Source: Gammaproteobacteria bacterium
GTDB lineage: Bacteria; Pseudomonadota; Gammaproteobacteria; Burkholderiales; Gallionellaceae
NCBI GenBank assembly: GCA_018813765.1
Contig: JAHJBC010000006.1
Location: 124,001 to 188,000 of the forward strand
DNA: 64,000 nucleotides
Direction of reading: 5' to 3'
Below, piece by piece: positions 25,300-48,264 of the stretch (positions are counted from its first letter, which is position 1; every line of letters begins with the position of its first letter). The notes beneath the pieces were generated by a model that had not been told where the DNA came from, did not search any database, and saw only the letters and a program-made list of their open reading frames with translations. The translations under genes and the position numbers were made by a program.

Positions 25300-25300
25300 G

Positions 25301-26941: not shown

Positions 26942-26966
26942 GGGAGAGGTTGATTGGTTGGAAAAG

Positions 26967-27071: not shown

Positions 27072-27196
27072 GCTGAACCCAAGCCAAAATCAAAAAATCA
27101 GCACCTCCCCGAGGTAAGGCGCTACGGCCTTCAGGGTTATGGAATGCAGTGCTTTGGGCTAGAATCCGTTGCAGCTACAAGACAACCCGAATCCAC

Positions 27197-30942: not shown

Positions 30943-31189
30943 TTGACGCAGAGCGAACCGGATCAACCGTCCAGATGCTCATGTGTTTACGGCCATGCCG
31001 GTTGAACGGGAAAGGGGTGTGGATTGAGGCCGAGGTTAAGCGATGGTTTAACCGTCATCCTTCTGCAGCCTGGCGAAGAATTTCGCCTGATCCGATTGCT
31101 GCAGGGATGGATTCTGCACCACATCGGCGCCAGCTTGCGTGGCCATTCCCCTCGACACAGACCCGATCATCAACGTTTTCTCGCGAACG

Positions 31190-31783
31190 TTACTCCAACC
31201 AGGCGTGGCGGGCGAGCCAACGGCTCAATTCGTTGTCGTTGGGCAGCACCAGCTTGCCGAACAACCTGGCCCGGTGGCTTTCCACCGAGCGCGGGCTGCA
31301 CGGCGGATTGAGTTGCTGGGAGATTTCCTTGTTGGATTGTCCCAGGGTCACTTGACGCGCCACCTCGCGCTCGCGCGGCGTAAGTTGCGTCCACAGTTGC
31401 TGGGCTGTGGCGCGTTCCTTCGCCTCGGCCATCGCAGTCGGCAATTTGTCGAGCAATTGCTGGGTATCCGGTTTGACTACCCAATCGAATGCCCCCAGAC
31501 GCACTGCCTCAAGTGCGGTGGGAATATCGCCGTGGCCGGACAGGAACAACGCAACCAGCGGGCTGTGTTGTTGCCGCAGTTCTTCCAGCACTGCCAATCC
31601 GCTCATGCCGTTCATGCGCAGATCAAGAATCACGCAACCAGGCCGTTGGGTGTTCGCGTTGTTCAGGAAGGCCTCGCCGGTATCAAAGCCTTGTACCGCC
31701 AATCCCTGTGAGAACAGCAGCAGGGAGCGTCGCAAGGCTTCGTCGTCATCGACCACTTAGAGAGTTAGTGCGGTTTCTGTCAT
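31190..31783 (-). pseudogene. FixJ/NarL-type response regulator with an in-frame stop at codon 9
   Basis: The original frame begins ATG at 31783 and reads MTETALTL, then TAA (31757-31759), then VVDDDEALRRSLLL. The rest is an intact receiver (phospho-acceptor Asp in VILDLRMNG, Lys in VVKPD) and a LuxR-type HTH (LTPREREVARQVTLGQSNKEI) to 31190. A TAC or TAT codon for Tyr (L-Y-VVDDDE is usual) has probably become TAA. A GTG at 31756 just after the stop could restart translation, so a functional 188-aa protein is not excluded. The ATG overlaps the kinase stop by 4 bases, as in an intact two-gene operon. Confidence 0.8.
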
Positions 31784-32457
31784 GGGGTCAATGGCAGGGA
31801 GAAGAAAAATATGGCGCCGCCTTCGGCGCGGTTGGCGACTTGCAGGGGGCCGCCATGCGCTTCGATGATGGTGTGGCAGATGTTCAGTCCGAGTCCGTCC
31901 GGCTTGGTGCTGAAGAAGGGTTAAAAAAATTTCTCCTGCATGGCTTCCGGGATGCCGGGACCGTGGTCGCCGACCTGGACCAAGATCGAGCTTTCGATCC
32001 GGAACGAGATGATGTCGATCACCCGTTGTGCGGGAGGCAAGTCCTGCATGGCTTGCATGGCATTTTGCACCAGATTGAACAATACCTGCCGCAGCAGGAC
32101 TGGATCTCCGCGCAGCTGCGGCAGGTTTTCGGTCAGTTGCATCCTGGTGTGCGTCTTTTGCCGCTGCAATTCAGGGCGCAGCATCGTCAGTGCGTCGTTG
32201 AGGACGGAATGTATGTCGCAGGATTCGTAAGTGCCGCGACGGGTGTTGATGAGGCTGCGGATGCGCCGGACGATGTCGCTGGCGCGCTGAGCCTGGGTCA
32301 CGATGTCGTCGAGCGCCGACGCAAGCAGCGGCTGTTGTTCCCGGCTGGCAATCGACTTGGCGGCCAGCGCAAAATTGGACAGCGTCATCAGCGGCTGGTT
32401 GAGCTCGTGTGCCATCGTGGTGGCGATCTCGCCCAGGCTGGCGAGGTGTGCGCTGCC
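31780..32457 (-). pseudogene. Histidine kinase remnant: N-terminus lost and one in-frame stop
   Basis: Kinase homology begins abruptly at about 32457 with AHLASLGEIATTMAHELNQP (H-box), then LFNLVQNAMQAM (N-box) and VGDHGPGIP (G1). After EKFF the frame meets TAA (31921-31923) and then continues PFFSTKPDGLGLNIC (F and G2 boxes) and ends with TGA at 31780-31782. The canonical sequence is F-E-PFF, so a GAA-to-TAA change explains the stop. The upstream sensor part is missing and replaced by unrelated DNA. The protein, if made, lacks the G2 box and should be inactive. Confidence 0.85.
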
Positions 32458-32460
32458 GGT

Positions 32461-32628
32461 ATCAGCAAGAACGTGGCTACAGGCTGCACCGCAGCTCACG
32501 TGTATGAGACGCCTGGCACTTACATGGCAAGCCTCACAATCACCGACATGGCGGGAACTGTGCGCACCTACAAGCAGACCATCATCGTCACGGAGTTCGC
32601 CGGGTTGCCCCGGAAAAATATTCGTTGA
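32461..32628 (+). pseudogene. C-terminal fragment of a PKD-domain protein
   Basis: On the plus strand, directly abutting the truncated kinase, 55 codons read like the end of a PKD (Ig-like) domain: ATGCTAAHVYETPGTYMASL, then TITDMAGTVRTYKQTIIVT, ending at TGA 32626-32628. PKD domains occur in large surface proteins, and the rest of the gene is absent. The open frame extends further upstream only as antisense of the kinase. It marks a deletion or rearrangement junction at about 32.45-32.47 kb. Confidence 0.65.
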
Positions 32629-32756
32629 ATATAGCTTGAAGATGGGTGAAGATGAGCAGGGTCGAATCCGGCATTCGACTCTGATTTAAAATTTCGCGAC
32701 TTTGCTATTCAATCGATTTGCTTGGCACATGAATAATGTGGAAGGAAGTTGAATAT

Positions 32757-33590
32757 ATGAAATCCAGCAAGCGCATTCTCGCAGTCATGTCCGAGTGGGG
32801 CTATTGGGGCATCGAGCTGGTTGGCCCGATGAGCAAGCTGGTGGCGGCCGGTTATGAATTTGATTTCGCCACTCCCAAAGGAAAACGCGCCCCGGTATTG
32901 CCGCCGAGCATAGACACCACCTACCGCGATCCGGCGCTGGATGCCTGTGTCACCACGCAGGAAGATGCCGCGCTGGTGCTGGCATTCGAGAAAACCAGCC
33001 AACTGGATAAAACGCTGAATCTTTCGGCAATGTTTCCCGAGAGGCCGTATTTCAGCCATCCCGGTTTCCTGCGCGAGTACGAGGCGTATCACGAAAAGCG
33101 CCGCATTGCACAGGAGAAAGCGGTGGCCGAGTACGACGCGATCCTGCTGGTCGGCGGCAGCGGCCCCATCGTCGATATCGTCAACAATCAGCGCGTGCAT
33201 GATCTGGTGCTGGCATTCCATGCGGCAGACAAGCCGATAGCTGCGATCTGTTACGGCGTGGCGACGCTGGTGTTCGCGCGCGACTTCAACGAACGCAAAT
33301 CCATCATCGCCGACAAGCATGTCACCGGCCACTGCATCGAGTACGACCATCACGACGGCACCGGTTTTGTCGGCACCGATTTCAACATGGGGCCGCCGCC
33401 CTATGTGCTCGAATATATCCTCGCCGATGCGGTCGGGCCGGGCGGCCAGTACCACGGCAATTTCGGCAAACGCACGTCCGTGATAGTCGATTTCCCGTTC
33501 ATCACGGCCAGATCGTTACAGTGCTCACATGAATTCGGCGAAAAAATACTGGAGGTTCTGGATGAAGGGTTGCGCCGCTACGGCTGGTGA
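32757..33590 (+). CDS. DJ-1/PfpI superfamily protein (Hsp31-like class I GATase fold)
   Basis: The 277-aa cytoplasmic protein has VMSEWGYWGIELVGP with the early acidic residue, LLVGGSGPIVDI and the nucleophile elbow AAICYGVATLVF (Cys near residue 169). VTGHCIEYDHHDGTGF follows. Proteins of this type include glyoxalase III/Hsp31 deglycases and amidotransferase-like enzymes; the activity here is not proven. The ATG at 32757 follows GAAGGA. It is the first of ten co-oriented genes reaching 44125, and a second DJ-1-type gene occurs at 35733. Confidence 0.87.
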   Translation: MKSSKRILAVMSEWGYWGIELVGPMSKLVAAGYEFDFATPKGKRAPVLPPSIDTTYRDPALDACVTTQEDAALVLAFEKTSQLDKTLNLSAMFPERPYFSHPGFLREYEAYHEKRRIAQEKAVAEYDAILLVGGSGPIVDIVNNQRVHDLVLAFHAADKPIAAICYGVATLVFARDFNERKSIIADKHVTGHCIEYDHHDGTGFVGTDFNMGPPPYVLEYILADAVGPGGQYHGNFGKRTSVIVDFPFITARSLQCSHEFGEKILEVLDEGLRRYGW

Positions 33591-33637
33591 CCTGCAGCCC
33601 GACAGGGATGAATGTTACGTTCCGGAGGAATGACATA

Positions 33638-34831
33638 ATGACTTCAATCGATGAGGGGATCGCCGCAGCGCGTTCCGGCGATATGGCAAAGCTGCAAGCG
33701 TGGCTTGATGCGGGAAATGGCCCCGACCATTACGATACCGCCGGATGGACGCCGTTGCTGTGGGCATCGGCGCGGGGGCATGGTGGCGCGGTAGAGTTGT
33801 TGTTGAAACGGGGGGCGGATATCTCGATGCCGCACCGGGACTCCGCCGCCCTGCCCATTCATCTTGCCGGGCAATCCGGCGATGTCAGGACATCCGAATT
33901 GTTGCTTGAACAAAGGCCGACGCACATCAATGCGGTATGGGATTTGAACGGGCACACCATTTCCCTGCAGGCGGTCTTTTACGGGCACCTGGCGTTGATG
34001 AAGCGTTTGCTCGCCATGCATCCGGACCTGTCCATCACGACGGCGCGCGGGCTGGGGGCCATGGATCTGGCGACGCAGTTCCAGAACGCGGCGATGATGG
34101 ACATCCTGCGCCCGCATGATGTCTCCGCTGAAGCAAAAGCTGCCTATTATCGAAGTTTTCTCAAGAGGATCGCCCCGGCGATTCCGCCGGGCGAGGAAAA
34201 AGCACAGCAACTTGCCGACAAACTGGTGGGCGTGATCGGCGACGGGATCAGGAACGCGGCCACCGATCCGTCGGCGGTGCAAGCGACGCTGGATGCAGTG
34301 CGCGAGATCGTGGAGAAAGAGCACGCCAATGTGAACCGTCTGGGTGGGGCGTTGCAACAGCCTCCGCTCATCGTGGTGGTGACCGGCAATAACGGGTTCC
34401 CCCCGAATCCGGTCGTCGCCAGTCTGCGCAATCAACTGGCCAATTATCTGCTCGAAAAAGGGGCCGACCCGACGCTGCACGAACAACATCCCATGGGTGC
34501 GCAGACCATCATTCGCGCATCGGTGTTCAATCACCTGGACATCCTGAAAATGTGCGCGCAATACATCACCCCGCAACAACTGACGGATGCGATCAATGAA
34601 ATCCCATTGGTGAACGGGCTGACGGCGATGCACGATGCGGTGTTGCGCGCGACCATGGCTGCGCCGGAACGTTTTGAAGGCTATCTGGATCAGGTTCGCT
34701 GGTTTGTGGCACACGGCGGGCGCAGCGATATGGAAGATTATGCCGGCGTGACGCAACGGGATATTGCGGAAAAAACAGACAAGCCGGAAGTTCGCCGCCG
34801 TCTTCTTGCGGTACTTGACGGGAAGGAGTAG
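33638..34831 (+). CDS. Ankyrin-repeat protein
   Basis: The 397-aa protein has N-terminal ankyrin repeats (about 1-150): GIAAARSGDMAKLQAWLDAG, TAGWTPLLWASARGHGGAV, HINAVWDLNGHTISLQAVF-like. A helical middle part (about 170-250) follows, then further ankyrin-like units (LANYLLEKGADPTLHEQHP, VRWFVAHGGRSDMEDYAG). No signal peptide is visible. Ankyrin units mediate protein binding. The GGAGG site before ATG 33638 is good. Its partner is unknown; it lies between a DJ-1 gene and an aldolase gene in the same direction. Confidence 0.85.
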   Translation: MTSIDEGIAAARSGDMAKLQAWLDAGNGPDHYDTAGWTPLLWASARGHGGAVELLLKRGADISMPHRDSAALPIHLAGQSGDVRTSELLLEQRPTHINAVWDLNGHTISLQAVFYGHLALMKRLLAMHPDLSITTARGLGAMDLATQFQNAAMMDILRPHDVSAEAKAAYYRSFLKRIAPAIPPGEEKAQQLADKLVGVIGDGIRNAATDPSAVQATLDAVREIVEKEHANVNRLGGALQQPPLIVVVTGNNGFPPNPVVASLRNQLANYLLEKGADPTLHEQHPMGAQTIIRASVFNHLDILKMCAQYITPQQLTDAINEIPLVNGLTAMHDAVLRATMAAPERFEGYLDQVRWFVAHGGRSDMEDYAGVTQRDIAEKTDKPEVRRRLLAVLDGKE

Positions 34832-34927
34832 AGGCCGAATCTGAATCACCGGCATTTCGCAGTTTGCAGGACAGCAGTATCCGACCAGTCACATCAATGC
34901 AGGAACCAACATAAAGGAGAACGCACG

Positions 34928-35719
34928 ATGAACTCAGATGGAAAGATGTCACCCAACAAACTGAAGCGCGACCTGGCTGCCGGCAAAGTATGCCTCGGTG
35001 CGACCATCACGATGGAAAACCCGGTAGTGGCGGAAATCCTTTCACACATCGGTCTTGACTGGCTGTGGATCGAGATGGAGCACTCGGTCACCAGCGATGG
35101 TGGAGTGCATGCCATGCTGCAGGCCACGAACGGCGCCGACACGAGCACGATGGTGCGCGTGCCGTGGAACGACAAGACGATGATCAAGCGCGTACTTGAT
35201 GCGGGACCGGACGGCATCATCATCCCCCTGGTCAACAGTGCGGCGGAAGCCGAAGCCGCCGTGAGCGCCATCAAGTACCCGCCACTGGGCGAGCGGGGCG
35301 CCGGACTGGCGCGTGCCCAGTGCTACGGTCTGGCCATGGAAGACTATATGAAGCGCGCCAATGACGAAGTCATGATCACACTCATGATCGAGCATGTCCA
35401 GGCGGTCGAAAACATCGAAGCGATACTCAAGGTCAAGGGCGTGGATTCGGTCATGGTCGGCGCGCTGGATCTTTCCGGCAGCATGGGGATTCTCGGACAG
35501 ACCACCGACCCCAGAGTCGAGGCTGCGATCCAGAAAGTCCTCGCCGCCAGCAAGAAAGCCAACATCCCCTGCGGCATCATCACCGTCGCCCCGGAGCAGG
35601 CCAACGAGCGAATCAAACAGGGCTTCACCCATATCATCATGGGCATCGATGTCCTGTATCTGGTTGGCGGCGTGACCGGCGCGCTGAAGCAGATCGTCCG
35701 CCCCGGCGGCGGCAAATAG
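34928..35719 (+). CDS. HpcH/HpaI aldolase/citrate lyase family protein
   Basis: The 263-aa protein matches class II, metal-dependent 2-keto-3-deoxy acid aldolases: GLDWLWIEMEHSVTS (acidic metal and substrate region), MVRVPWND with the conserved Arg, LDAGPDGIIIPLVNSAAEA and the metal-binding Glu in TLMIEHVQAVENIE with Asp in GALDLSGSMG. Such enzymes cleave 2-oxo-hydroxy acids to pyruvate plus an aldehyde. The substrate is unknown. The next DJ-1-type gene begins 13 bases on. Confidence 0.9.
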   Translation: MNSDGKMSPNKLKRDLAAGKVCLGATITMENPVVAEILSHIGLDWLWIEMEHSVTSDGGVHAMLQATNGADTSTMVRVPWNDKTMIKRVLDAGPDGIIIPLVNSAAEAEAAVSAIKYPPLGERGAGLARAQCYGLAMEDYMKRANDEVMITLMIEHVQAVENIEAILKVKGVDSVMVGALDLSGSMGILGQTTDPRVEAAIQKVLAASKKANIPCGIITVAPEQANERIKQGFTHIIMGIDVLYLVGGVTGALKQIVRPGGGK

Positions 35720-35732
35720 TGCGGAGGACGCC

Positions 35733-36302
35733 GTGAGACTAAAAGGCAAAAAGATCGCGGTGCTGATCGAGAGCGACTTTTACGAGAACGAGATCATCTA
35801 CTACAAGCTGCGCTTTGCCGAAGAAGGGGCGGAGTTGCATTTCCTAAGCCGCATGTGGGGGCAGCCGAAACTGACGTTCACCGGGCACGAATTCCGGATG
35901 CCGATGGATTGCAACGAGAGCTTCGAGAACATGAGCGATGCGGAGTTGGGTAGTTATGCTGCCGTCATCGTGCCTGCGGGGATGGTGGCCGACCGGCTGC
36001 GCTATACCGAGGATGTTGCCATGATTCCTCCTGCGGCCGAATTTATGCGGCGTGCCTTTGCGGACAAGAAGATCGTCAAAGGCATCATATGCCACGGCAT
36101 GTGGCTGATGTCGCCGGTCATAGAAGTGATTCGCGGAAGGAAAGTCACGCTGCACAACAACCTCATCGGCGATGCGAAGAACTACGGTCTGCACTATGTG
36201 GATCAGGATGTGGTGGCGGACGGCGACCTGATCACGGGACGCAGCGGCGGACACTGCCACCTGTTTGCACGAAAGATAATCGATACCTTGGCCGCCGGGT
36301 AA
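35733..36302 (+). CDS. DJ-1/PfpI family protein, short form
   Basis: The 189-aa protein starts with GTG after GGAGG. It has KKIAVLIESDFYENEIIYY with the conserved Glu, a central AAVIVPAGMVADRLRYTED and the elbow KGIICHGMWLMSP with the nucleophilic Cys and adjacent His typical of PfpI/YhbO proteins. These act as deglycases, glyoxalases or proteases, and which applies cannot be told. The 13-base spacing behind the aldolase suggests that a released aldehyde or reactive carbonyl could be its substrate (inference). Confidence 0.88.
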   Translation: MRLKGKKIAVLIESDFYENEIIYYKLRFAEEGAELHFLSRMWGQPKLTFTGHEFRMPMDCNESFENMSDAELGSYAAVIVPAGMVADRLRYTEDVAMIPPAAEFMRRAFADKKIVKGIICHGMWLMSPVIEVIRGRKVTLHNNLIGDAKNYGLHYVDQDVVADGDLITGRSGGHCHLFARKIIDTLAAG

Positions 36303-36375
36303 CCAACTCGAACAAAATCAGAATGTTCCGCAACGTGGTTTTCCAGAAATCAATCGCATTGAAATGGAGGGCATA

Positions 36376-38202
36376 GTGGACTCAATCAACTTTTCATTTT
36401 CAGACACGATCGCCGGCTATGTGGTGCAGAGCGAGAAAGACTCTGACACCTTTTCGGTCAAGACCTCAGACGACCGGGTTTTCGTCGTCAAGCTCGGACC
36501 CAATTCCTACGCATGGATTGCCAACAACCTGAATGAGCCGCGCCAATGGTGCGCGGAACAGATGCGCAGCATGCTGGTGCCGGGGCGATTCCTGTTCGTC
36601 TACGGCACTTTCTATCATGAGGGGGGCGGTTTCAATTTTGTGGCGCAGTATCTGGTGTTCCCCGGCCACAAGCCGGATGAATACGACTTCGAGAAACGCG
36701 ACTGGTGGGTGAGACAGATCCGCGCATTGGGCGATTTCTATCTGCGTGCCCAGTTCGGCGAAACCGAAGTCAATTACGACAACTACCGCACCACGATCAA
36801 GGTGACCGGGGAAAAGGACAAGGACCATTACCGGCAGGAGACCGACACCATCTCGCGCCTGGTCTACGGTTTTGCCAGCGCCTACATGCTGACCGGCGAC
36901 GATCGTTTCCTGGACGGGGCGGAGAAAGGCACCGAATACCTGCGCGAGCACATGCGCTTCGTCGACCTGGACGAGAACCTCGTCTACTGGTATCACGGCA
37001 TCGATGTGGAAGGCCGGCGCGAAACCAAGATTTTCGCCTCCGAATTCGGCGACGACTACGATGCCATTCCCGCCTACGAACAGATCTACGCCCTGGCCGG
37101 TCCCACGCAGACTTATCGCATTACCGGCGACCCGCGCATCCTGAAGGATGCCGCAATGACGGTGGATCTGTTCGACCGTTTTTTCGAGGACGAGACGCTG
37201 GGCGGCTACTTCTCCCACATCGATCCCATCACGCTGGACCCCCGCAGCGAGTCGCTGGGCGAGAACCGCGCGAAGAAGAACTGGAACTCGGTGGGCGATC
37301 ACGCCCCGGCCTACCTGATCAACCTGTATCTGGCCACGGGCGATGCGCGCTACGGCAAGATGCTGGAGCAGACCTTCGACACCATCACCGCGCATTTTCC
37401 GGATTACGGCTGCAGCCCCTTTGTGCAGGAAAAATTCCTGGAAGACTGGAGCCCCGATTACACCCATATGTGGCAGCAGAACCGCGGCGTGATCGGCCAC
37501 AACCTCAAGATCGCCTGGAACCTGATGCGCATGTTCGGCGAAAAGCCGAAGCCGGAGTACGAGTCCTTTGCGCGCAAGATCGCCGAACTCATGCCCGCGA
37601 TCGGCGGCGACCCGCAACGCGGCGGCTGGTACGACGTGATGGAGCGCCTGCTGGCGCCGGGCCAGGAGAAACACCGCTTCGCCTTCCATGACCGCAAGGC
37701 GTGGTGGCAACAGGAGCAGGGGATACTGGCCTACCTCATCCTGCGCGGCGTGCTGGGCGATGCGCAATATATGAAAATCGCCCGCGAATCCTCGGCTTTC
37801 TACAACTGCTTCTTCCTGGATCACGACGAAGGCGCGGTGTACTTCAACGTGCTGGCCAACGGTGTTCCCTATCTCATGGGCACGGAGCGCCTGAAAGGCA
37901 GCCACTCCATGAGCGGTTACCACTCGTTCGAGCTGTGCTACCTGGCCCAGGTGTACACCAACCTGCTGATCACGCAGCAGCCTCTCGAGTTGTATTTCAA
38001 GCCGATGCCCAACGGTTTCAAGGACAACATCCTGCGCGTGGCGCCGGACATCCTGCCTGCGGGACGGGTCAAGCTGGAAAAAGTCTGGGTGGACGACGAA
38101 CCGTACAATGATTTCGATGCCGAACGGATGACCGTCAACCTGCCGAAGACCGAGCAAAGCGTGCGCGTGAAAGTGCTGCTCCAGCCGCAAAGGAGGCCAT
38201 GA
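36376..38202 (+). CDS. AGE-family (N-acylglucosamine 2-epimerase-like) alpha6/alpha6-barrel protein
   Basis: I chose the GTG at 36376 (608 aa) because GGAGG ends 5 bases before it; an ATG at 36364 contains that same site. The N-terminal 110 residues form a small beta-rich domain (FSFSDTIAGYVVQSEKDSD). The rest looks like an AGE/cellobiose-epimerase barrel: TISRLVYGFASAYMLTGDD, LGGYFSHIDP, ENRAKKNWNSVGDHAPAYL, GVIGHNLKIAWNLMRMF and WWQQEQGILAYLILRGV. Such enzymes epimerise or isomerise sugars. Its stop overlaps the STAS gene, and glgX is the next enzyme gene. Confidence 0.8.
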   Translation: MDSINFSFSDTIAGYVVQSEKDSDTFSVKTSDDRVFVVKLGPNSYAWIANNLNEPRQWCAEQMRSMLVPGRFLFVYGTFYHEGGGFNFVAQYLVFPGHKPDEYDFEKRDWWVRQIRALGDFYLRAQFGETEVNYDNYRTTIKVTGEKDKDHYRQETDTISRLVYGFASAYMLTGDDRFLDGAEKGTEYLREHMRFVDLDENLVYWYHGIDVEGRRETKIFASEFGDDYDAIPAYEQIYALAGPTQTYRITGDPRILKDAAMTVDLFDRFFEDETLGGYFSHIDPITLDPRSESLGENRAKKNWNSVGDHAPAYLINLYLATGDARYGKMLEQTFDTITAHFPDYGCSPFVQEKFLEDWSPDYTHMWQQNRGVIGHNLKIAWNLMRMFGEKPKPEYESFARKIAELMPAIGGDPQRGGWYDVMERLLAPGQEKHRFAFHDRKAWWQQEQGILAYLILRGVLGDAQYMKIARESSAFYNCFFLDHDEGAVYFNVLANGVPYLMGTERLKGSHSMSGYHSFELCYLAQVYTNLLITQQPLELYFKPMPNGFKDNILRVAPDILPAGRVKLEKVWVDDEPYNDFDAERMTVNLPKTEQSVRVKVLLQPQRRP

Positions 38203-38537
38203 TGCAAGTGGACGTGCGCGACGACGCCGGCATCGTTCTCATCGAGCCGACAGGGGACATCGACGGCAAGACTGCGCCGGACTTCCAGGATCAGGTGCTC
38301 GTTCGGGTGCAGCCCGGGGCGCGCATCGTGTTGAATCTGGCGCGGGTGCCTTTCATGTCCAGTGCCGGGCTCAGGTCCATGTTGCTGATCTACCGGGAGG
38401 CCAAATCCAGGGGCGCGAAAGTGGTGCTGGCGCAGGTCAACAAGGATATCCGCGGCAGCATGTCCGCCACGGGTTTCCTGTCCTTTTTCGTCGTCTGTGA
38501 CAGCGTGCAAGATGGCATGCGGGAAGCGGGAGGCTGA
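38202..38537 (+). CDS. STAS-domain anti-anti-sigma factor-like protein (RsbV type), first copy
   Basis: The 111-aa single-domain protein has LIEPTGDIDGKTAPDFQ and the phospho-site region VPFMSSAGLRSMLLIYREAK, with Ser before AGL as in RsbV/SpoIIAA. The ATG at 38202 lies 5 bases after AGGAGG; one codon earlier is also ATG. It overlaps the epimerase stop by one base and ends 2 bases before glgX, so it is embedded between two carbohydrate-enzyme genes. Its partner should be the HATPase kinase at 41141. Confidence 0.9.
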   Translation: MQVDVRDDAGIVLIEPTGDIDGKTAPDFQDQVLVRVQPGARIVLNLARVPFMSSAGLRSMLLIYREAKSRGAKVVLAQVNKDIRGSMSATGFLSFFVVCDSVQDGMREAGG

Positions 38538-38539
38538 TC

Positions 38540-40729
38540 ATGCAACGCATCGATACCCAACCTACTCACGAGTACCAGGGCTACCGGATATGTCCCGGCC
38601 AGCCCTTTCCCTTCGGCGCCTCGCTGGTGCCCGGCGGGGTAAACTTCTCGGTGTTTTCGCGCAACGCCAGTTATTGCGTGCTGGTGCTGTTCGAGAAGGG
38701 CGCACGCGAACCCCTGGTGGAGATACCTTTCCGCGGCATGTTCCAGAAGGCATTCAGCAACGAACCGGTGTGGGGTGAATTCCGCATCGGCAACGTCTTC
38801 AACATGACGGTTCTGGACCTGGATCACGAAGCCATCGAATACGGCTTCCGCATGGATAGCGGCCAGCCCAGGGCGGCTGCGGGGCAGCCCGCTTTTCACC
38901 GCTTCGACCCGTCCGTGGTGCTGATGGACCCTTATGCGCGGGCCATCGGCGGCAGGGATGTGTGGGGGCAGAAGCCGGACTGGCAGGCGCCCTACCCGCA
39001 TCGCTCGCGCGTGGCGTTCGCCGACTTCGACTGGGAAGGCGATCGCCCTCTTGAAATCCCGCTGGAGGACCTGGTCGTGTACGAGATGCATGTGCGCGGC
39101 TTTACCCGCCACCCGTCTGCGGGACTGGACGAAACGGTGGCCGGCACCTACGCCGGCCTGCGCGAGAAAATCCCCTATCTGAAAAAACTGGGTGTCAATT
39201 GCGTGGAATTGATGCCGGTGTATGAATTCGACGAGTTCGAGCACAGCCGCTGGGACGAACAGCAGGGGCGCTGGACCAAGATGAACTACTGGGGTTACAG
39301 CACCGTCGGCTTTTTCAGTCCCAAGGCCGGATATGCCGCCACGGGGCGAACGCAAGACGGCACCATGGTTGCGGACGAGCTGAAAAACCTGGTGAAGGAA
39401 TTGCACCGCAACGGGATCGAAGTCATCCTCGATGTGGTGTTCAACCACACGGCCGAGGGCAACGAGCAGGGCCCCACCATTTCCTATCGCGGCATCGACA
39501 ACGCCACCTACTACATGCTCACCCCGGAGGGGCATTACTACAACTTCAGCGGCACCGGAAATACGCTCAACTGCAACAACCCCATCGTGCGCGACATGGT
39601 GATCGATGCATTGCGCTACTGGGCATCGCAATACCACATCGACGGCTTCCGTTTCGATCTGGCTTCCATCCTGAGCCGTGACCAATGGGGCGGCCCGATG
39701 GCTAATCCGCCGTTGCTGGAGGCGCTGGCCTTCGACCCGATACTGGGCAAGTGCAAGCTGATCGCCGAGGCCTGGGATGCGGGCGGGCTGTACCAGGTCG
39801 GCTCCTTCCCGGCGTACGGGCGCTGGGCGGAATGGAACGGCAAATATCGCGACACCCTGCGCCGCTTCCTCAAGGGCGATCCCGGCGAAAGCGGAGCCAT
39901 GAGCCAGGCAGTGCAGGGCTCGCCACACCTGTATTACGGGCGCAGCCCGACGGCCTCCATCAATTTCTTTACCTGCCACGACGGCTTTTGCCTGGCCGAC
40001 ATGGTCTCGTATAACGACAAGCACAATGAGGCCAATGGCGAGGGCAACGGAGACGGTGCCAACGACAACGCAAGCTGGAACTGCGGATGGGAGGGCCCCA
40101 CGGAGGATGTTTCCATCCTGTCCTTGCGCGAGCGCCAGATGAAAAACGCCATGGCCATGCTGCTGGTCAGCCAGGGCGTGCCCATGATCCTGATGGGCGA
40201 CGAGTTCGGCCAGAGCAAGCAGGGTAACAACAACACCTATTGCCATGACAACGAGATCAACTGGCTGGATTGGTCGCTCAAGCAACGCAATGCCGACTAC
40301 CACCGCTTTGTCAGGAACATGATCGCCTTCCGCCACGCGCACCCGGTGTTGCGCAGCAAGGATCACCTGCGCAACACCGACTATGTGGGCAGCGGATACA
40401 GCGATATCTCCTGGCATGGCACACGGGCATGGCAACCGGACTGGGGCGGCAGGGTGCTCGCTTTCATGCTGTGCGGACGTCACGCCAAAGGCGGGATGAG
40501 TGAGGACGATTATATTTATGTGGCGATGAACATGTATTGGGATGCTCTGCCTTTCGAGATACCGCGCCTGCCGGAGGGGTCGCGCTGGCATGTCTCCGTC
40601 AATACTGGCATGCCGACGCCGCAGGACATATTCGAGCCCGGCAGCGAGCCGGAACTGGCGGATCAGGGCAACTGCCTGGCGGGGGGGCGTTCGGTGCTCA
40701 TTCTGGTGGGCAGGTCTGCCGGGCCATAA
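38540..40729 (+). CDS. glgX: Glycogen debranching enzyme GlgX-type (GH13)
   Basis: This GH13 isoamylase-type enzyme hydrolyses alpha-1,6 branches of glycogen or limit dextrins. The 729-aa protein has an N-terminal CBM48 (GASLVPGGVNFSVFSRNAS), then VYEMHVRGFTRHPS, ILDVVFNHTAEGNE, catalytic nucleophile in DGFRFDLASIL (near residue 372), acid/base in LIAEAWDAGG (near 407) and FTCHDGFCLADMV (near 478). The catalytic set is intact. No glgB/glgP/glgA is nearby; instead it sits inside a partner-switching gene set. Confidence 0.93.
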   Translation: MQRIDTQPTHEYQGYRICPGQPFPFGASLVPGGVNFSVFSRNASYCVLVLFEKGAREPLVEIPFRGMFQKAFSNEPVWGEFRIGNVFNMTVLDLDHEAIEYGFRMDSGQPRAAAGQPAFHRFDPSVVLMDPYARAIGGRDVWGQKPDWQAPYPHRSRVAFADFDWEGDRPLEIPLEDLVVYEMHVRGFTRHPSAGLDETVAGTYAGLREKIPYLKKLGVNCVELMPVYEFDEFEHSRWDEQQGRWTKMNYWGYSTVGFFSPKAGYAATGRTQDGTMVADELKNLVKELHRNGIEVILDVVFNHTAEGNEQGPTISYRGIDNATYYMLTPEGHYYNFSGTGNTLNCNNPIVRDMVIDALRYWASQYHIDGFRFDLASILSRDQWGGPMANPPLLEALAFDPILGKCKLIAEAWDAGGLYQVGSFPAYGRWAEWNGKYRDTLRRFLKGDPGESGAMSQAVQGSPHLYYGRSPTASINFFTCHDGFCLADMVSYNDKHNEANGEGNGDGANDNASWNCGWEGPTEDVSILSLRERQMKNAMAMLLVSQGVPMILMGDEFGQSKQGNNNTYCHDNEINWLDWSLKQRNADYHRFVRNMIAFRHAHPVLRSKDHLRNTDYVGSGYSDISWHGTRAWQPDWGGRVLAFMLCGRHAKGGMSEDDYIYVAMNMYWDALPFEIPRLPEGSRWHVSVNTGMPTPQDIFEPGSEPELADQGNCLAGGRSVLILVGRSAGP

Positions 40730-40805
40730 TCATGCACGCAGTCGGCCCCAGAACGGGCCGGAGCGGCTGGGACGTAATTGCAACTTGATAAAAAAGGAGA
40801 TAGTC

Positions 40806-41129
40806 ATGGGATTCAGCATTTCGGTAGAGGGAGGCCAGGGAGAGGCCACCATCAAGTTGGTGGGTGAACTGGATGCCGCCGCTGCACCCCAGTTCAAGGA
40901 AGCGATCGAGAAGTTGGCCGTGGACAAGCCGCAGCGCTTGATACTGCACATGGATCAGCTTGAGTTCATGGCCAGTGCGGGCCTGCGGGTGCTGATCTTC
41001 GCCCGCCAGAAAATGGGGGCCGACGTCTCGCTCTACGTGATTGGCAGTCGCGGCCCGGTCCTGAACACCCTGAAGATGAGCGGCTTCCATCACAGCGTCT
41101 ATCTTCAGGACACCTACGCGCCAGAGTGA
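40806..41129 (+). CDS. STAS-domain anti-anti-sigma factor-like protein, second copy
   Basis: The 107-aa protein has KLVGELDAAAAPQFKEAIEK and LEFMASAGLRVLIFARQKMG, with the phosphorylatable Ser in ASAGL, as in RsbV. It has a strong AAGGAG site. It differs considerably from the STAS protein at 38202, so the two are paralogues with possibly distinct partners. The kinase-like gene begins 11 bases after its stop. Confidence 0.92.
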   Translation: MGFSISVEGGQGEATIKLVGELDAAAAPQFKEAIEKLAVDKPQRLILHMDQLEFMASAGLRVLIFARQKMGADVSLYVIGSRGPVLNTLKMSGFHHSVYLQDTYAPE

Positions 41130-41140
41130 TCGGCAGCGTC

Positions 41141-41566
41141 ATGGACAAGCTCACGCTGCCTGCCGTGCTGGCTTCTCTCGCGGAGCTTCGCCGCTACGCG
41201 CGGGAAGCGGCTGCCGCTGCCGGTATTGAAGAGGAACGCTCCTATCAACTGCAACTGGCGGTGGATGAGATCGCCACCAACATCATTTCCTACGGCTACA
41301 AGGACGCAGGCCCGATGGCGCAGATCGTGATCGGCGGCGAGATCACGGCTGATGTCCTCATCATTACCCTGGAAGACCATGCACCCGCCTTCGATCCCCG
41401 CACCAGACAGATGCCGGATGACGACGAACTGAGCAAGCCGCTGGAAGAGCGGACCATCGGCGGGCTGGGAATTTATCTCGCCATGGAGGGCGTGGACCGC
41501 TTCGACTACCGTCGCGAGGGGGAGCGAAATCTCAACATCTTCGAGATGCGGAGGCGAAATGGTTGA
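41141..41566 (+). CDS. RsbW-type anti-sigma/serine kinase (HATPase_c_2)
   Basis: The 141-aa protein shows the GHKL ATPase motifs QLAVDEIATNIISYGY (N-box), LEDHAPAFDP (G1) and GGLGIYLAMEGVDRFDY (G2), as in RsbW/SpoIIAB. It would phosphorylate a STAS partner and sequester its target. A GTG at 41126 overlaps the STAS stop; I prefer the ATG at 41141. No sigma factor is encoded in the cluster, so the final target is unknown. Confidence 0.9.
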   Translation: MDKLTLPAVLASLAELRRYAREAAAAAGIEEERSYQLQLAVDEIATNIISYGYKDAGPMAQIVIGGEITADVLIITLEDHAPAFDPRTRQMPDDDELSKPLEERTIGGLGIYLAMEGVDRFDYRREGERNLNIFEMRRRNG

Positions 41567-41689
41567 ATGCAACGCCACCCCTTCCGCAAATATCCATGGC
41601 CTCATTCCCGCTCTGATGCGAGCACGGGAAAAACAGCGGACGCAATACCCGCCTTTGCGCATATGGCGATTATTTTCCGGCGCGCGACC

Positions 41690-44125
41690 ATGAAGCCAAA
41701 ATCCATCAAGGTCAAGATTTTGCTGGCACTGCTGGCCGTGTCGCTGCTGCCGCTGTTTCTGTTCGTGGTGATCAGCCGCATCGGCATGGTAGAGGTAGGG
41801 GACCGAGTCAAGACCACTCTCATCAGAGAAGCCGAGGAGAGGTTGGAACAGCTGGCCGAGGATCAGGCAATCATCGCCGACGCCATGCTCAGTCAGGTCG
41901 ATGCGGAGACGAGATTGGCTGCCCATTCCACCAGGATGCTCCTGAGGGCGCGGTCCGTCGGTGCCGATTCCGCAGCGAAAGCACCGGATGACCAGTTTGC
42001 GAGCTTAAGCTATTCCATTCCTCCTGCCATGTCCTTCGCCACCGCACAGTTCGAACTGGCCAAGTACGGCGCGCAGAACAAGCATGGCCCGCTGGAAGAG
42101 GTGTTCTCCCTCGTCCGGAGGGGCGATTCGAAACTGAGTGCGATCTATTTCGGCACTGCGTCCGGCATCCTCCTCGCATCCCCCAAGATCGTCGAGAAAC
42201 AAGGTGTGCTGGAGTTCAACCTCGACGCTGCATTTGCGGCGCAACTAAACAACGGCGCCATCACCACTCCACTTTGGGATGCGTTCCGGCAGAACCGGGT
42301 GACGCTGTCGCGACAATCCAGAGTGTCCCCCATGACGCGCGGCAAGTGGCTGGTAACGGACAGCGAGACTGAGCGAATCTTCTTAGTGCGGCAGGCTGTG
42401 CGCGGTCTGGATGTGTACCGGGAATACGATCCGAGAATCCGCGCCTGGTATCTCCACGCAGCCGACCGGGAAGGGGTTATCTGGACCAAGTATGCCGACT
42501 GGAACAGTCCCGGACATCACTTGTTCAGTCTCGACGCGGGGCTGGCCCTTGAAACGGGTGGCAAGGCATCCCCCAACCTTGTTCAGGCCTTCGCGAGTCA
42601 ACACATCACCCTCGGCGCAGCCAGTACGATCACTCTGCAGAAGAAAGGTAAATGGAGACTGCAGGATGCGAACGGCAGGAATTACGAGATCAGGGAAGAG
42701 CAGGGCGTGCTGAATGTCTACAACATCGACATCCTGACCTGCACCCTGGCCGTGCCGACTCCGCAAGGGAAACTTGCAGGCGTGGTCGGACTGGACGTCC
42801 CCATGAACGTCATCAGCGGGCGCATCCTCCACACGCCCGAAATGACATCGGGCTACGCCTTTCTTCTGAACGAACAAGGCGAACTCATCGAGCAGGAAAG
42901 ATCCGACATGTTCATCCCGGAGGCCGGCAGCGACATCCGCCGCAAGATGACCGCCGGCGGTTCCGGGTTCGGGTTCGACGCCGACAGAGCTGCCTATGTG
43001 TTTTACGCACCCATCCGCTCCATCCGCTCAGCCGACGGCAAATCGTTCTGGAGCGTCGGGATATCCATGCCGCAAGCGGAGATCACGCGGCTCGCCGACG
43101 ACATCCAGCAGTTCATGGCTCTCGTGCTCAATGTGCTGGTAGGCATTCTTGCAGTCATGTTTCTCATCGTGATCTACGCTGCCGCCCGCGTGTCCAAGGG
43201 GATCACCGGACCCATACTGGAACTCGATGCGGGCGCCATGCGCATCGGCAGCGGTGATCTCGACTACACACTGGAGGTGAAGACCGGCGACGAGATCGAA
43301 GAGCTGGCCAACGCCTTCAACCAGATGACTGGCGATCTCAAGACCTACATCAGGAACCTCAAGGAAACCACCGCCGAGAAAGAGCGTTTCGCAAGCGAGC
43401 TCAGGGTGGCCCACGAGATCCAGATGAGCTTTCTCAAGAAGATATTCCCGCCCTTCCCGGACAGGAGCGAGATATCCCTGTATGCCACTCTCGAACCGGC
43501 ACGGGAGGTGGGCGGTGACCTTTACGACTTCGCGCTGGTGGACGAGAACCAGTTGTTCTTTTACATCGGCGATGTGTCGGACAAGGGAGTGCCGGCATCT
43601 CTTGTGATGGCCATGACCATGACCCTCATGAAGCGCGCGAGCCACCAGCCCGGCATCACCCCTGCAGAGGTATTGCGCCAGGTGAACAATGCGCTGGCGG
43701 AAGATAACCAGAACGCGATGTTCGTCACCCTGTTTATCGGATTGTTGAACCTGAAAACCGGAGAGCTATGCTTCTCCAACGCCGGCCACAACCCGCCCCT
43801 GATTCTCAGCGCAGATGGACGCTGCCGCTACCTGCAACTGCCTGACGGTCTGGTGCTTGGGGTGCTCACCGATACCCCGTACAGCGATGACCGCGTGCAG
43901 CTTGAACCGGGAGACATGATCGTGACCTACACGGACGGCGTGACCGAGGCCATGAATACCCGGCGGGCCTTGTATTCGGAAGAGCGCCTGCAAGAAACGC
44001 TGGTGTCCCTGGCGGGTGGTAATGTCGAGGAAACGGTTTCCGGAATCGTTGCTTCCGTCAAGAAATTCGCAGACGGTGCACCGCAGTCCGACGATATCGC
44101 CGTGCTGGCCCTGCGGCGAAACTGA
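41690..44125 (+). CDS. Membrane sensor PP2C-type phosphatase (Cache-HAMP-SpoIIE/RsbU)
   Basis: From ATG 41690 the protein has 811 aa: a membrane segment near 8-30, a large periplasmic Cache-like sensor (about 35-470), a second membrane segment (FMALVLNVLVGILAVMFLIV), HAMP, a helical linker and the SpoIIE phosphatase domain. The latter has metal-site acidic residues in VGGDLYDF, GDVSDKGVPASLVMA, YTDGVTEAMN and QSDDIAVLAL. It should dephosphorylate the STAS proteins in response to an external signal, completing the partner switch. The frame is open upstream to 41567, but the segment at 41690 starts a typical membrane anchor. Confidence 0.92.
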   Translation: MKPKSIKVKILLALLAVSLLPLFLFVVISRIGMVEVGDRVKTTLIREAEERLEQLAEDQAIIADAMLSQVDAETRLAAHSTRMLLRARSVGADSAAKAPDDQFASLSYSIPPAMSFATAQFELAKYGAQNKHGPLEEVFSLVRRGDSKLSAIYFGTASGILLASPKIVEKQGVLEFNLDAAFAAQLNNGAITTPLWDAFRQNRVTLSRQSRVSPMTRGKWLVTDSETERIFLVRQAVRGLDVYREYDPRIRAWYLHAADREGVIWTKYADWNSPGHHLFSLDAGLALETGGKASPNLVQAFASQHITLGAASTITLQKKGKWRLQDANGRNYEIREEQGVLNVYNIDILTCTLAVPTPQGKLAGVVGLDVPMNVISGRILHTPEMTSGYAFLLNEQGELIEQERSDMFIPEAGSDIRRKMTAGGSGFGFDADRAAYVFYAPIRSIRSADGKSFWSVGISMPQAEITRLADDIQQFMALVLNVLVGILAVMFLIVIYAAARVSKGITGPILELDAGAMRIGSGDLDYTLEVKTGDEIEELANAFNQMTGDLKTYIRNLKETTAEKERFASELRVAHEIQMSFLKKIFPPFPDRSEISLYATLEPAREVGGDLYDFALVDENQLFFYIGDVSDKGVPASLVMAMTMTLMKRASHQPGITPAEVLRQVNNALAEDNQNAMFVTLFIGLLNLKTGELCFSNAGHNPPLILSADGRCRYLQLPDGLVLGVLTDTPYSDDRVQLEPGDMIVTYTDGVTEAMNTRRALYSEERLQETLVSLAGGNVEETVSGIVASVKKFADGAPQSDDIAVLALRRN

Positions 44126-44161
44126 ATTTCATCAAACCTGAAAACCGCAGTTGAAGTGTTT

Positions 44162-44221
44162 GTAGGTGCGAATTCATTCGCACGATAATTCAGTGAGGCA
44201 AACCCCCGGCTATGCCGGGGG
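44162..44221. repeat. REP-like palindrome and CCCCCGGC hairpin after the phosphatase gene
   Basis: GTGCGAATTCATTCGCAC (inside 44162-44183) is a near-perfect palindrome of a REP type seen in many proteobacteria. At 44203-44221 CCCCCGGC/GCCGGGGG forms an 8-bp stem with loop TAT, a possible terminator lacking a U tract. Both lie in the 377-base gap 44126-44502, which holds no intact gene; only the remnant frame at 44237-44344 and the toxin promoter region are otherwise notable. Confidence 0.6.
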
Positions 44222-44236
44222 GCTCAACAAGGTTTG

Positions 44237-44344
44237 ACCTATACCGACATCAATCCGTTGGGGCCGGAGGGGGTGTTTCCGTCGGCGAAGGTGGATTTGA
44301 TGGTGCAGGTGTTGGCGGGGATTCGGAAGAGTGCGGTGGGGTAG
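44237..44344 (+). pseudogene. Possible gene remnant without a start codon
   Basis: One frame reads TYTDINPLGPEGVFPSAKVD and continues about 15 residues to TAG at 44342-44344. It has protein-like composition but no start codon or ribosome site. I do not recognise the family; it may be the tail of a deleted gene, or chance. Confidence 0.3.
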
Positions 44345-44463
44345 GGCAGGCCATTGTCTGCTGGCTAATGGAAAACATATTGATTTAAAGTGGTTTTGTT
44401 ATTTTCGGTGTGGCAGCAACACTAATATGGCTAGGTAAATTAAAGCTTGTGCAATTTTGGCCG

Positions 44464-44475
44464 TTGTATATACAA
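44464..44475. promoter_or_regulatory. Palindrome TTGTATATACAA upstream of the toxin gene
   Basis: A perfect 12-base palindrome lies 27 bases before the start at 44503. Its core GTATATAC recurs at 44808-44815, upstream of the antitoxin gene. It is a candidate operator for the ribbon-helix-helix-like antitoxin. Confidence 0.45.
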
Positions 44476-44502
44476 TGCAGGCCTATTCCGGAATTCATGA
44501 CC

Positions 44503-44796
44503 ATGAAACTCCATATTTCAGCAGCAGTTCGGGAAAAGCTTGCAAACAAGACACCGCCTGTGTCAGAGAGTGAAATCGTCCAATGTTTCGCGAACCGTAC
44601 GGGCAAGGATTTGATTGATACGCGGGCAGACAATATGACAAATCCGCTAACCCGTTGGTTTATTGCTGAAACTGATTTTGGGCGGAAGCTTAAGGTGGCA
44701 TATATGCCGACGGTTAACGGGATTGTCATCAAGTCAGCCTACGATCCCAATGATGAGGAGAAACGGATTTATAACAAGTATTCTCACCCAATTTAG
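44503..44796 (+). CDS. Small protein of the ADP-ribosyl-(dinitrogen reductase) hydrolase-like annotation group; probable toxin
   Basis: The 97-aa protein reads KLHISAAVREKLANKTPPVS, QCFANRTGKDLIDTR, TRWFIAETDFGRKLKVAYMP and ends with EEKRIYNKYSHP. Proteins with this pattern are usually annotated with that misleading hydrolase name and are paired with the antitoxin-like gene type found 58 bases downstream. I infer a toxin-antitoxin module; the biochemical activity is unknown. The start may be ATG 44503 or 44497. Confidence 0.7.
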   Translation: MKLHISAAVREKLANKTPPVSESEIVQCFANRTGKDLIDTRADNMTNPLTRWFIAETDFGRKLKVAYMPTVNGIVIKSAYDPNDEEKRIYNKYSHPI

Positions 44797-44807
44797 TATT
44801 TGCTCTC

Positions 44808-44815
44808 GTATATAC
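44808..44815. promoter_or_regulatory. Second GTATATAC motif, before the antitoxin gene
   Basis: The 8-base core of the palindrome at 44464-44475 is repeated here, 39 bases before the antitoxin start. Repetition ahead of both genes supports a shared autoregulatory site. Confidence 0.35.
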
Positions 44816-44854
44816 AGAAAACATTAGCCTAAAAGGCACACCAAGGAGACAGCC

Positions 44855-45229
44855 ATGAGCAAAAAACCACCAACCCCCAAAATTCCAGATACCGAGGAAG
44901 CTTGGCTATCTGGTGAGTTGGGCACGGATGAGGAATTTGTGGCGGTAGCACCAGACGATGCGGAATCGATCATTAACGAACAGCTCGACTTGCAACCGAT
45001 TTCCATTCGGCTCGAAAAGTCCCTCATCGAAGACTTCAAACTCATTGCGGCGATGCACGGACTGGGATATCAGCCGTTGATGAGACAATCTCTGAAGAGG
45101 TTCGCGGACTGCGAAAAGAAGCGCATCTTGCGCGAAGCAGCTGCGGATATGGCGGCAAGAAAGAAGACAGAAAAAGGATCTCAATCTGAAGCCGCCTTAT
45201 CGGAAGAACCACAAAAGAAAGCGGCCTAA
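44855..45229 (+). CDS. BrnA/CopG-like ribbon-helix-helix antitoxin
   Basis: The 124-aa protein has an acidic N-terminus and a ribbon-helix-helix-like core PISIRLEKSLIEDFKLIA then GYQPLMRQSLKRFADCEKKR, a pattern found in BrnA-type antitoxins. The C-terminal 30 residues are charged low-complexity sequence. A strong AAGGAG site precedes the ATG. It probably neutralises the protein encoded upstream and represses the pair through GTATATAC sites (inference). Confidence 0.75.
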   Translation: MSKKPPTPKIPDTEEAWLSGELGTDEEFVAVAPDDAESIINEQLDLQPISIRLEKSLIEDFKLIAAMHGLGYQPLMRQSLKRFADCEKKRILREAAADMAARKKTEKGSQSEAALSEEPQKKAA

Positions 45230-45298
45230 CTATTGCCATCCCACCTGCTGGTGGGGGGGCGATCACTCAGTGATGGATCAAGAATGATTGCCAAAAAA

Positions 45299-45325
45299 AG
45301 CCTCGCAGCAATGCGAGGCTTTTTG
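45299..45325. terminator. Bidirectional rho-independent terminator
   Basis: AGCCTCGCA (45299-45307) pairs with TGCGAGGCT (45312-45320), followed by TTTTT and preceded by AAAAAAA. It ends the toxin-antitoxin transcript and, on the other strand, the gene at 45428-45802. Confidence 0.93.
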
Positions 45326-45427
45326 TTCCTGACGGTGGATGCTGGGCAATAAGGCCTGCATCGCAATAGTATTGAGCAGCGACCGGTTTGTGACATCCAG
45401 AACTAACAAGTGCGGTAGCCCCTCCCG

Positions 45428-45802
45428 TCAGATTTCTTCGAATGTGCTGTTGTACTCCCCGAACCACGGGGTGACCGCGATTGCGATGTTCATGAGATCG
45501 GCGCTTTCCATATCCGCAATGATCCAATACCCGCCTACTCCCAATACCTCGACCCACTTCGGGTGCACGTGGTCGACATCCCGCTTTCCGGCAGCCAGGT
45601 TTTGCTGAATGGCCTCGTATACCTTCTCGTTATCTTTCGCCACTTCCCTGATGCTTCTCAGGATATCGTCGACGTAGCCGCGCTCGGGCAGATACCCTCT
45701 AGCCGTATTTGGTATCTCGGATGATATCTTTGCACTCGGCTTGTTTGCGACGAGGTATCGGGCGGCTGCGATGACTTCGTTCTTGTTGTATTGAATCTTC
45801 AT
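45428..45802 (-). CDS. Hypothetical protein
   Basis: I do not recognise this 124-aa protein. It begins MKIQYNKNEVIAAARYLVAN and contains GYLPERGYVDDILRSIREVA, KRDVDHVHPKWVEVLGVGGY and a final ADLMNIAIAVTPWF. There is no signal peptide or membrane segment. An AGGAGGA ribosome site on the minus strand supports the start. GC is lower than the window average, and it lies beside a toxin-antitoxin pair, so acquisition is plausible. Confidence 0.7.
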   Translation of the reverse strand: MKIQYNKNEVIAAARYLVANKPSAKISSEIPNTARGYLPERGYVDDILRSIREVAKDNEKVYEAIQQNLAAGKRDVDHVHPKWVEVLGVGGYWIIADMESADLMNIAIAVTPWFGEYNSTFEEI

Positions 45803-45953
45803 GGGGTTGTCCTCCTGGAATGCGTTCTCTTATTGTCCGGGTTGGGGTATGTGCATTATTCCTGCATCCTTTCCGGCGGCATATATGTATATTTACGGCT
45901 CCAATAGTAGGACAATCAAAACTGTAACTTGCAAACATTCAGATAGCGTTCAA

Positions 45954-48084: not shown

Positions 48085-48168
48085 TCGGGTGAAGGCAAAC
48101 TCCTGCCGATCAAGGTTTGAAATATGCGGGAGTCGAGCCCAAGGTTGTATATGCGCGGCCCTGCATTA

Positions 48169-48264
48169 GCCCCCCTTTGCAAAAGGGGGGTGGGGGGGAT
48201 TTGAGAGAGGATGAAGCGCCGCGATTTTAAATCCCCCTTACTCCCCCTTTTTCAAAGGGGGAAA
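48169..48264. repeat. Intergenic inverted repeat, CCCCCTTTGCAAAAGGGG type (copy 2)
   Basis: Same organisation as 14664-14770: a CCCCCCTTTGCAAAAGGGGGG hairpin at the left, GGGGGGATTT inside, AAATCCCCC in inverted order, and CCCCCTTTTTCAAAGGGGG at the right. It lies between the ACT-domain gene and the convergent HNH gene. Confidence 0.87.

Follow-up and report, generated by a model that had tools for sequence, protein, structure and literature searches.

Gene content of the cluster and its relation to icfG

We analysed a window of 64,000 nucleotides (the whole stretch of DNA, from contig JAHJBC010000006.1) of a genome from the Gallionellaceae, hereafter called the host. At positions 32757-44125, this window holds ten genes that, judged from their sequences, are a horizontally acquired sugar-metabolism regulatory cluster of the cyanobacterial (icfG) type, which is a known kind. 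All ten open reading frames are intact and located on the plus strand, and the domains that an earlier note on this DNA had named for these co-oriented genes were confirmed by a Pfam profile search. The core consists of six contiguous genes for an AGE-fold protein, a first STAS protein (STAS1), GlgX, a second STAS protein (STAS2), an RsbW-type kinase and a SpoIIE phosphatase, with a DJ-1/ankyrin/HpcH/DJ-1 block upstream.

The first core gene (36364..38202) codes for a protein of 612 residues that was assigned by Pfam to the AGE superfamily (GlcNAc 2-epimerase family) and has extra N- and C-terminal parts. Via structure comparison, a model of the window protein was found to have the mannose isomerase/2-epimerase fold, which places it in the AGE superfamily, and only residues from about 104 to 540 belong to that fold. 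A lysine is present in 81 of 81 aligned rows at the position of the glutamate of the GHxxE motif, which is Glu in the solved glucose 2-epimerase 8h1k and which we take to be catalytic in 2-epimerases. Because of this replacement, the protein does not qualify as a functional 2-epimerase, and it is provisionally classed as an AGE-fold protein without assigned chemistry.

STAS1 (38199..38537; PF01740) is a single-domain protein of the anti-sigma-antagonist type with the motif MSSAGLR and a phosphorylatable Ser55, as numbered from the first methionine. Its gene overlaps with the epimerase-like gene by 1 base, as previously claimed, if translation begins at the second ATG (38202), and by 4 bases if it begins at the first (38199). 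The gene for GlgX (38540..40729), an isoamylase-type debranching enzyme of family GH13, follows after 2 bases; the protein scores 644 bits against TIGR02100 (cut-off 640.9), which identifies it as GlgX, and it contains the D/E/D segments that are presumably catalytic. STAS2 (40806..41129; PF01740), also a single-domain protein, carries the motif MASAGLR with Ser57 and is, according to the tree described below, of the type that is fused to the AGE-fold protein in relatives. The kinase gene (41141..41566; PF13581, HATPase_c_2) is separated from STAS2 by 11 bases if the ATG at 41141 is used; a GTG at 41126 would give an overlap of 4 bases. Its product contains the motifs DEIATN and GGLGI, and the best NCBIfam match is to the anti-sigma B factor RsbW, at 35.6 bits against a cut-off of 145, so that it is not assigned to the RsbW equivalog. 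The phosphatase gene starts at 41567 (or 41690) and ends at 44125. Its SpoIIE (PP2C; PF07228) and HAMP (PF00672) domains scored over the cut-offs and its Cache domain (PF02743) under it (36.5 of 45 bits), and the motifs GGDLYD, GDVSDKG, TDG and SDD are present.

Hence, the tight gene joins in the earlier note hold with the start codons given above, and the motif string searches recovered the phospho-Ser, GHKL and PP2C motifs in intact form. No sigma factor gene is present among the ten cluster genes, as had been noted before. Promoter-like sites (1, as compared to a mean of 4.4 in shuffled sequence) and terminator-like sites (10, as compared to 10.7) gave no signal over shuffled sequence.

The upstream block, also on the plus strand, consists of genes for a DJ-1/ThiJ-like protein (DJ1a, 32757..33590; PF17124, PF01965), which passed zero NCBIfam cut-offs, an ankyrin-repeat protein (33638..34831; Pfam Ank families) with a possible alternative GTG start at 33587, an HpcH/HpaI-type aldolase (34928..35719; PF03328) and a DJ-1/PfpI-type protein (DJ1b, 35733..36302; PF01965).

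The earlier note presented these genes as a candidate undescribed system. This was rejected, as the gene content and order of the core are those of the icfG cluster (slr1852-slr1862) of Synechocystis sp. PCC 6803, in which genes for an epimerase, a STAS protein, GlgX, a second STAS protein, a PP2C phosphatase and an RsbW-type kinase are located in one operon. According to the literature, this operon encodes the N-acetylglucosamine 2-epimerase Slr1855, the anti-sigma factor antagonist Slr1856, a GlgX and IcfG (PMC8670252), with Slr1861 as the kinase, Slr1856 and Slr1859 as the STAS proteins, Slr1860 (IcfG) as the phosphatase and Slr1857 as the isoamylase (PMC12329169). A study from 1999 described it in its title as a cluster of an Rsb/Spo-like kinase, a phosphatase and two phosphoproteins (cited in PMC8670252, PMC11619594, PMC6213207), and work cited in PMC12329169 has linked it to the regulation of carbon and glucose since the 1990s. 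For the Synechocystis homologues, kinase activity, phosphatase activity and phosphorylation of both STAS proteins have been reported (PMC12329169, PMC11619594). The identification rests on gene content, gene order and these published descriptions, with PCC 6803 outside the set of fetched loci and the sequences of Slr1855-Slr1861 outside the comparison.

The window cluster differs from that of Synechocystis in that the kinase gene precedes the phosphatase gene, in the Cache-HAMP input part of the phosphatase (GAF in two cyanobacterial relatives), in the extra DJ-1/ankyrin/HpcH block and in a host genome without a group-2 sigma factor, as read from its sequence. The domain set and the phospho-Ser motif are shared with RsbU/RsbV/RsbW and SpoIIAA/SpoIIAB of B. 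subtilis (in part PMC12329169), but the window has two STAS proteins, linked carbohydrate enzymes and no linked sigma factor. Likewise, a PP2C phosphatase, a kinase and a STAS-like protein act on an enzyme in SiaABCD of Pseudomonas aeruginosa (PMC7647112, PMC8457831), but the site there is a threonine and the enzyme is a diguanylate cyclase; the window phosphatase scored 79.6 against the SiaA family of NCBIfam, for which the cut-off is 700.

Distribution among relatives and acquisition by the host

A scan of genome contigs with the AGE protein yielded at least 585 matching stretches, of which the best 80 loci were fetched and compared. Neighbouring genes were identified by phmmer with the window proteins as queries, in frames between stop codons of 80 residues or more, which misses genes that are divergent or short. 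The free STAS sequences in the alignments were picked by similarity to the STAS proteins of the window. The genes for AGE, STAS and GlgX were found in this order in 56 of the 80 loci, with a second STAS gene directly next in 45 and another gene or the contig end in 11; thus, the gene order is conserved beyond chance. One of the remaining 24 loci has another arrangement, and 23 contain a GH13 gene followed by the AGE gene without a separate STAS gene. Among the 52 cyanobacterial loci, 24 have AGE-STAS-GlgX-STAS directly in order and 18 are of the fused kind described below. The gene order recurs in the Cyanobacteriota, Chloroflexota, Deinococcota, Pseudomonadota and others. The earlier note had stated that signalling and enzyme genes in unlinked loci of related genomes would refute its proposal; the linkage is kept across phyla, so the proposal is not refuted on this ground.

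Gene presence was counted in 48 of the 57 unfused loci, with nine omitted for having less than 6.5 kb to the right of the AGE gene. STAS1, GlgX, STAS2, kinase and phosphatase were all present, on either strand, in 41 of these 48 loci, a count in which locus L011 was scored as being without SpoIIE, yet has SpoIIE fused to the kinase. The aldolase and ankyrin genes are, as far as these loci tell, accessory, because HpcH was found in 2/48 and the ankyrin gene in 3/48. The DJ1a gene, present in 9/48, is also accessory, and some DJ-1 gene was found in 42/48. These counts lend no support to the aldehyde and carbonyl enzymes of the earlier note as members of the core. In the ten phosphatases examined, the input part was Cache and/or HAMP in five, a receiver in two and GAF in two, and none was found in one. 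A few loci show other gene fusions: DJ-1 and AGE are in one frame in L062, the kinase is fused with the phosphatase in L077, as it is in L011, and in L135 an unannotated kinase-like stretch between STAS2 and the phosphatase shares one open frame with the latter.

Matches were also obtained in 21 plasmid records, of which ten were inspected, and relatives are carried by plasmids of Streptomyces, Deinococcus, Runella, Gemmobacter, Nostoc, Gloeothece and Gloeocapsopsis. The gene order is found on the Streptomyces, Deinococcus and Runella plasmids; SpoIIE was not matched in the stretch from Runella. The Streptomyces plasmid copies (L137, L141, L142, L144) have neighbours annotated as maltokinase, maltosyltransferase, GlgB or TreS, and thiamine-pyrophosphate-binding protein, which hints at an alpha-glucan context.

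No AGE match was found in the 60 relatives of the host that were searched, nor in a class sample of 368 other genomes, which has at least one genome in common with the 60. In two congeners (G028 and G011; loci L122 and L124), the matches to the window up to 30942 and from 47488 stand 22 bp apart. Because the AGE gene is absent from 60/60 relatives and the flanks are this close in two congeners, the cluster is considered to be imported, and a native locus was rejected on the same grounds together with the class sample. The flank comparison with the two congeners places the imported segment at approximately 30943..45800; in L122, the GGDEF gene at 45801-47414 of the window is located beyond gcvR instead. 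In total, seven congener loci were compared, including one with the flanks about 460 bp apart (L125) and one with the flanks in swapped order (L126). The AGE gene is rare in the Gammaproteobacteria and not unique to the host, as three loci that bear this class in their title or classification (L004, L005, L014) also carry it. Among the best 80 loci, the nearest AGE protein is 90% identical and comes from a Gammaproteobacteria metagenome genome (L004), followed by that of Thiodiazotropha (L005; 84%) and then those of Trueperaceae. L004 is colinear with the window from the AGE gene to the kinase gene at 84% DNA identity, and its DJ-1/ankyrin/HpcH block is located downstream.

Fusion of a STAS2-type domain to the AGE-fold protein and the proposed output of the switch

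In 23 of the 80 loci, which are all of the loci with GH13 followed by AGE, the AGE protein carries a fused STAS2-type domain at its C-terminus. In a quick tree of the STAS sequences, the fused and STAS2 sequences were located on one side of a branch and STAS1 on the other, with a support of 100 in the Shimodaira-Hasegawa-like approximate likelihood ratio test (SH-aLRT). The fused form was also found on plasmids of Gemmobacter, Nostoc and Gloeothece. The phospho-Ser is present in all aligned free STAS1 (58/58) and free STAS2 (51/51) sequences, the window included, and the 23 fused domains have Ser in 3, Thr in 11 and Ala, Glu or Pro in 9. After thinning at 70% identity, Ser was kept in 36/36 STAS1, 28/28 STAS2 and 2/10 fused sequences.

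Neither a separate STAS protein nor a kinase or phosphatase was matched in the stretches of the 23 fused loci, and the same holds for the stretches from the Gemmobacter, Nostoc and Gloeothece plasmids. A search with the AGE query in 18 genomes with fused AGE recovered only the fused copy in 15, both forms in HT-58-2 and more distant extra matches in two. The kinase was searched for in 20 genomes, of which 17 have only the fused form and three have an unfused cluster (HT-58-2 and the genomes of L023 and L063), with 5 of the 23 fused loci outside this set. A close kinase (109-135 bits) was found in all three genomes with an unfused cluster and in none of the 17 fused-only genomes. Two Streptomyces plasmids contain an unfused STAS2-type gene near the AGE gene with Ala or Pro at the phospho-site, as judged by eye, and their stretches gave no match to the kinase or the phosphatase; the STAS2-type gene adjoins AGE in L144 and is located past a GH13 gene on the opposite strand in L142. 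Among the open-licence papers listed for STAS together with an epimerase, GlgX or isoamylase, none could be recognised as a description of this fusion, and the joining of a STAS2-type domain to AGE, mostly without the phospho-Ser and in genomes where no close kinase was found, is a new observation of this analysis. STAS2 thus remains fused to AGE or near it where the kinase search gave no close match, and its phospho-site has mostly decayed, which speaks for an action of STAS2 on the AGE-fold enzyme.

Several observations weigh against this interpretation. Weak kinase matches were obtained in three of the 17 fused-only genomes (52.6, 24.3 and 23.5 bits), and the completeness of these 17 genomes is not stated, which qualifies the absence of a kinase. 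Although the tree has two changes to the fused form, a single clade was not rejected by the approximately unbiased test (p-AU 0.501); two independent fusions are therefore not claimed, and the 23 rows do not count as independent. Among the fused rows, many from Nostoc are near-copies, 11 have Thr at the site, and two of the three with Ser (L039, L042) come from genomes in which the kinase gave no match. The AGE gene of L143 seems to end close to where the STAS part begins. Also, the predicted model of the fused AGE-STAS protein has a predicted template modelling score (pTM) of 0.80, as compared to 0.90 for AGE alone, and the placement of the STAS domain is not fixed.

Taken together, we give nearly an even chance to the reading that the cluster is an imported icfG-type partner switch with direct control of the AGE-fold enzyme, perhaps with GlgX working with it, as its main output. 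A signal sensed by the Cache-HAMP part would set the activity of the phosphatase, which together with the RsbW-type kinase would set the phosphorylation of Ser55 in STAS1 and Ser57 in STAS2. Unphosphorylated STAS2 would bind the AGE-fold protein and hold it active, and phosphorylated STAS2 would release it; STAS1, whose Synechocystis counterpart is the better substrate of the phosphatase, would tune the amount of kinase that is free for STAS2. STAS2 is the proposed AGE partner, with an availability controlled by the kinase, because it stays with AGE and its site decays where no close kinase is found, and we infer activation since it is a non-phosphorylatable form that is kept fused. Both the target and the sign of the control are thus suggested by the fusions and losses. 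A broader statement, to which we assign a slightly lower probability, is that STAS2 is a phosphorylation-controlled subunit of the AGE-fold enzyme that some lineages have hard-wired, either fused or as an unfused Ser-less protein, and have discarded the kinase, the phosphatase and the phospho-site; on this view, the icfG cluster of cyanobacteria, like this mobile switch, would have an enzymatic and not a purely transcriptional output. The proposal in the earlier note that the switch acts on the enzymes thus gains comparative support for a STAS protein acting on the epimerase-like enzyme. A STAS-GlgX fusion was not reported among the frames scanned.

The published Synechocystis results bear on both sides. 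Deletion of slr1859, the STAS gene after glgX by position, is reported to give the carbon/glucose phenotype and deletion of slr1856 not to do so (PMC11619594). In vitro, IcfG is reported to remove the phosphate from Slr1856 but to leave Slr1859 phosphorylated, and the kinase, too, prefers Slr1856 as its substrate (PMC12329169, PMC11619594). These enzyme data make an action of the phosphatase on the STAS2 position less likely, and for them the probabilities given to enzyme control and to the broader statement were both lowered slightly. In addition, Slr1861 has been reported to be an anti-SigC factor, as based on pull-downs for Ssr1600 and holoenzyme data, with the complex with SigC only modelled (PMC12329169). 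A sigma target for this kinase was proposed in 2025.

The host genome provides a regulatory background for weighing the alternatives. The cluster phosphatase is its sole SpoIIE hit, and the cluster kinase its only strong RsbW-type hit (78.7 bits), with 18 others at 35 bits or less in frames of 349-748 residues. Six STAS hits were obtained, of which only the two from the cluster are in frames shorter than 200 residues (the next is 268). Among the ten sigma-70 region-2 hits, which we take from their sequences to be of RpoD, RpoH, RpoE, FliA and ECF types, no group-2 sigma factor was read. A second GlgX was not found, nor was a GlgB-like protein in one single-sequence search; the second hit in the glycogen-enzyme search is a frame read as a secreted alpha-amylase.

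A classical partner switch, with the kinase as an anti-sigma factor, release of the sigma factor by the STAS proteins and the enzymes as mere members of the controlled operon, fits the report on Slr1861 as well as the RsbW-type domain and motifs of the window kinase. We nevertheless regard it as unlikely: the cluster is found across phyla without a sigma gene, the sigma factors of the host have no match in 79 of the 80 loci, some of which are short (the one hit, in L057, is 6.6 kb from AGE), no group-2 sigma factor was read in the host, and STAS2 is still near AGE or fused with it in cases in which the kinase search gave no close match. If the kinase held a sigma factor and the free STAS proteins also acted on AGE or GlgX, the evidence for both targets would apply, and SiaABCD offers a parallel in a diguanylate cyclase that is activated by its STAS-like binding partner (PMC7647112; PMC8457831). 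Such a dual output needs more parts than necessary and has no known sigma partner in the host, and its probability is likewise low. Finally, the fused STAS domain could be a structural or tethering part of AGE that is uninformative on the free switch, or the imported cluster could be idle in the host. The drift of the fused domain at the phospho-site and the GlgB search, by which the usual substrate may be absent, agree with this, but all ten window genes are intact with their motifs kept, the fused STAS groups with STAS2 in the tree, and Ser is kept in every aligned free STAS1 and STAS2, which makes this explanation quite improbable.

Direct control of the AGE-fold enzyme is thus the reading that we retain, in the form that the switch may act on a sugar enzyme instead of or besides a sigma factor. 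The AGE-STAS2 fusion, with its mostly lost phospho-Ser and no close kinase found, is a concrete and cheap handle on such an enzyme output, for a module that is present in several phyla and on plasmids.

Other genes in and around the imported segment

Within the imported segment, a LuxR-type response regulator and a histidine kinase fragment, which looks truncated with an ATPase domain match over 58/111 positions, are encoded at 31190-32499 on the minus strand. On the right side of the segment (44410-45229, plus strand), two small genes, the second with a weak CopG-antitoxin match under the cut-off, are perhaps a toxin-antitoxin pair. To the left, a Ser/Thr kinase-HDOD-GAF fusion (28582-30942, plus strand) is kept in several congeners and stands directly before gcvR in two. 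Further upstream (24103-25828, plus strand), a gene pair of low guanine-cytosine content was read as an XRE and metallopeptidase-like protein, which gave no NCBIfam match, and a PIN-like protein, in a toxin-antitoxin-like arrangement. The short repeats at about 26961-27074 and 48152-48263 are dispersed elsewhere in the host genome, and the former is also found in the congeners.

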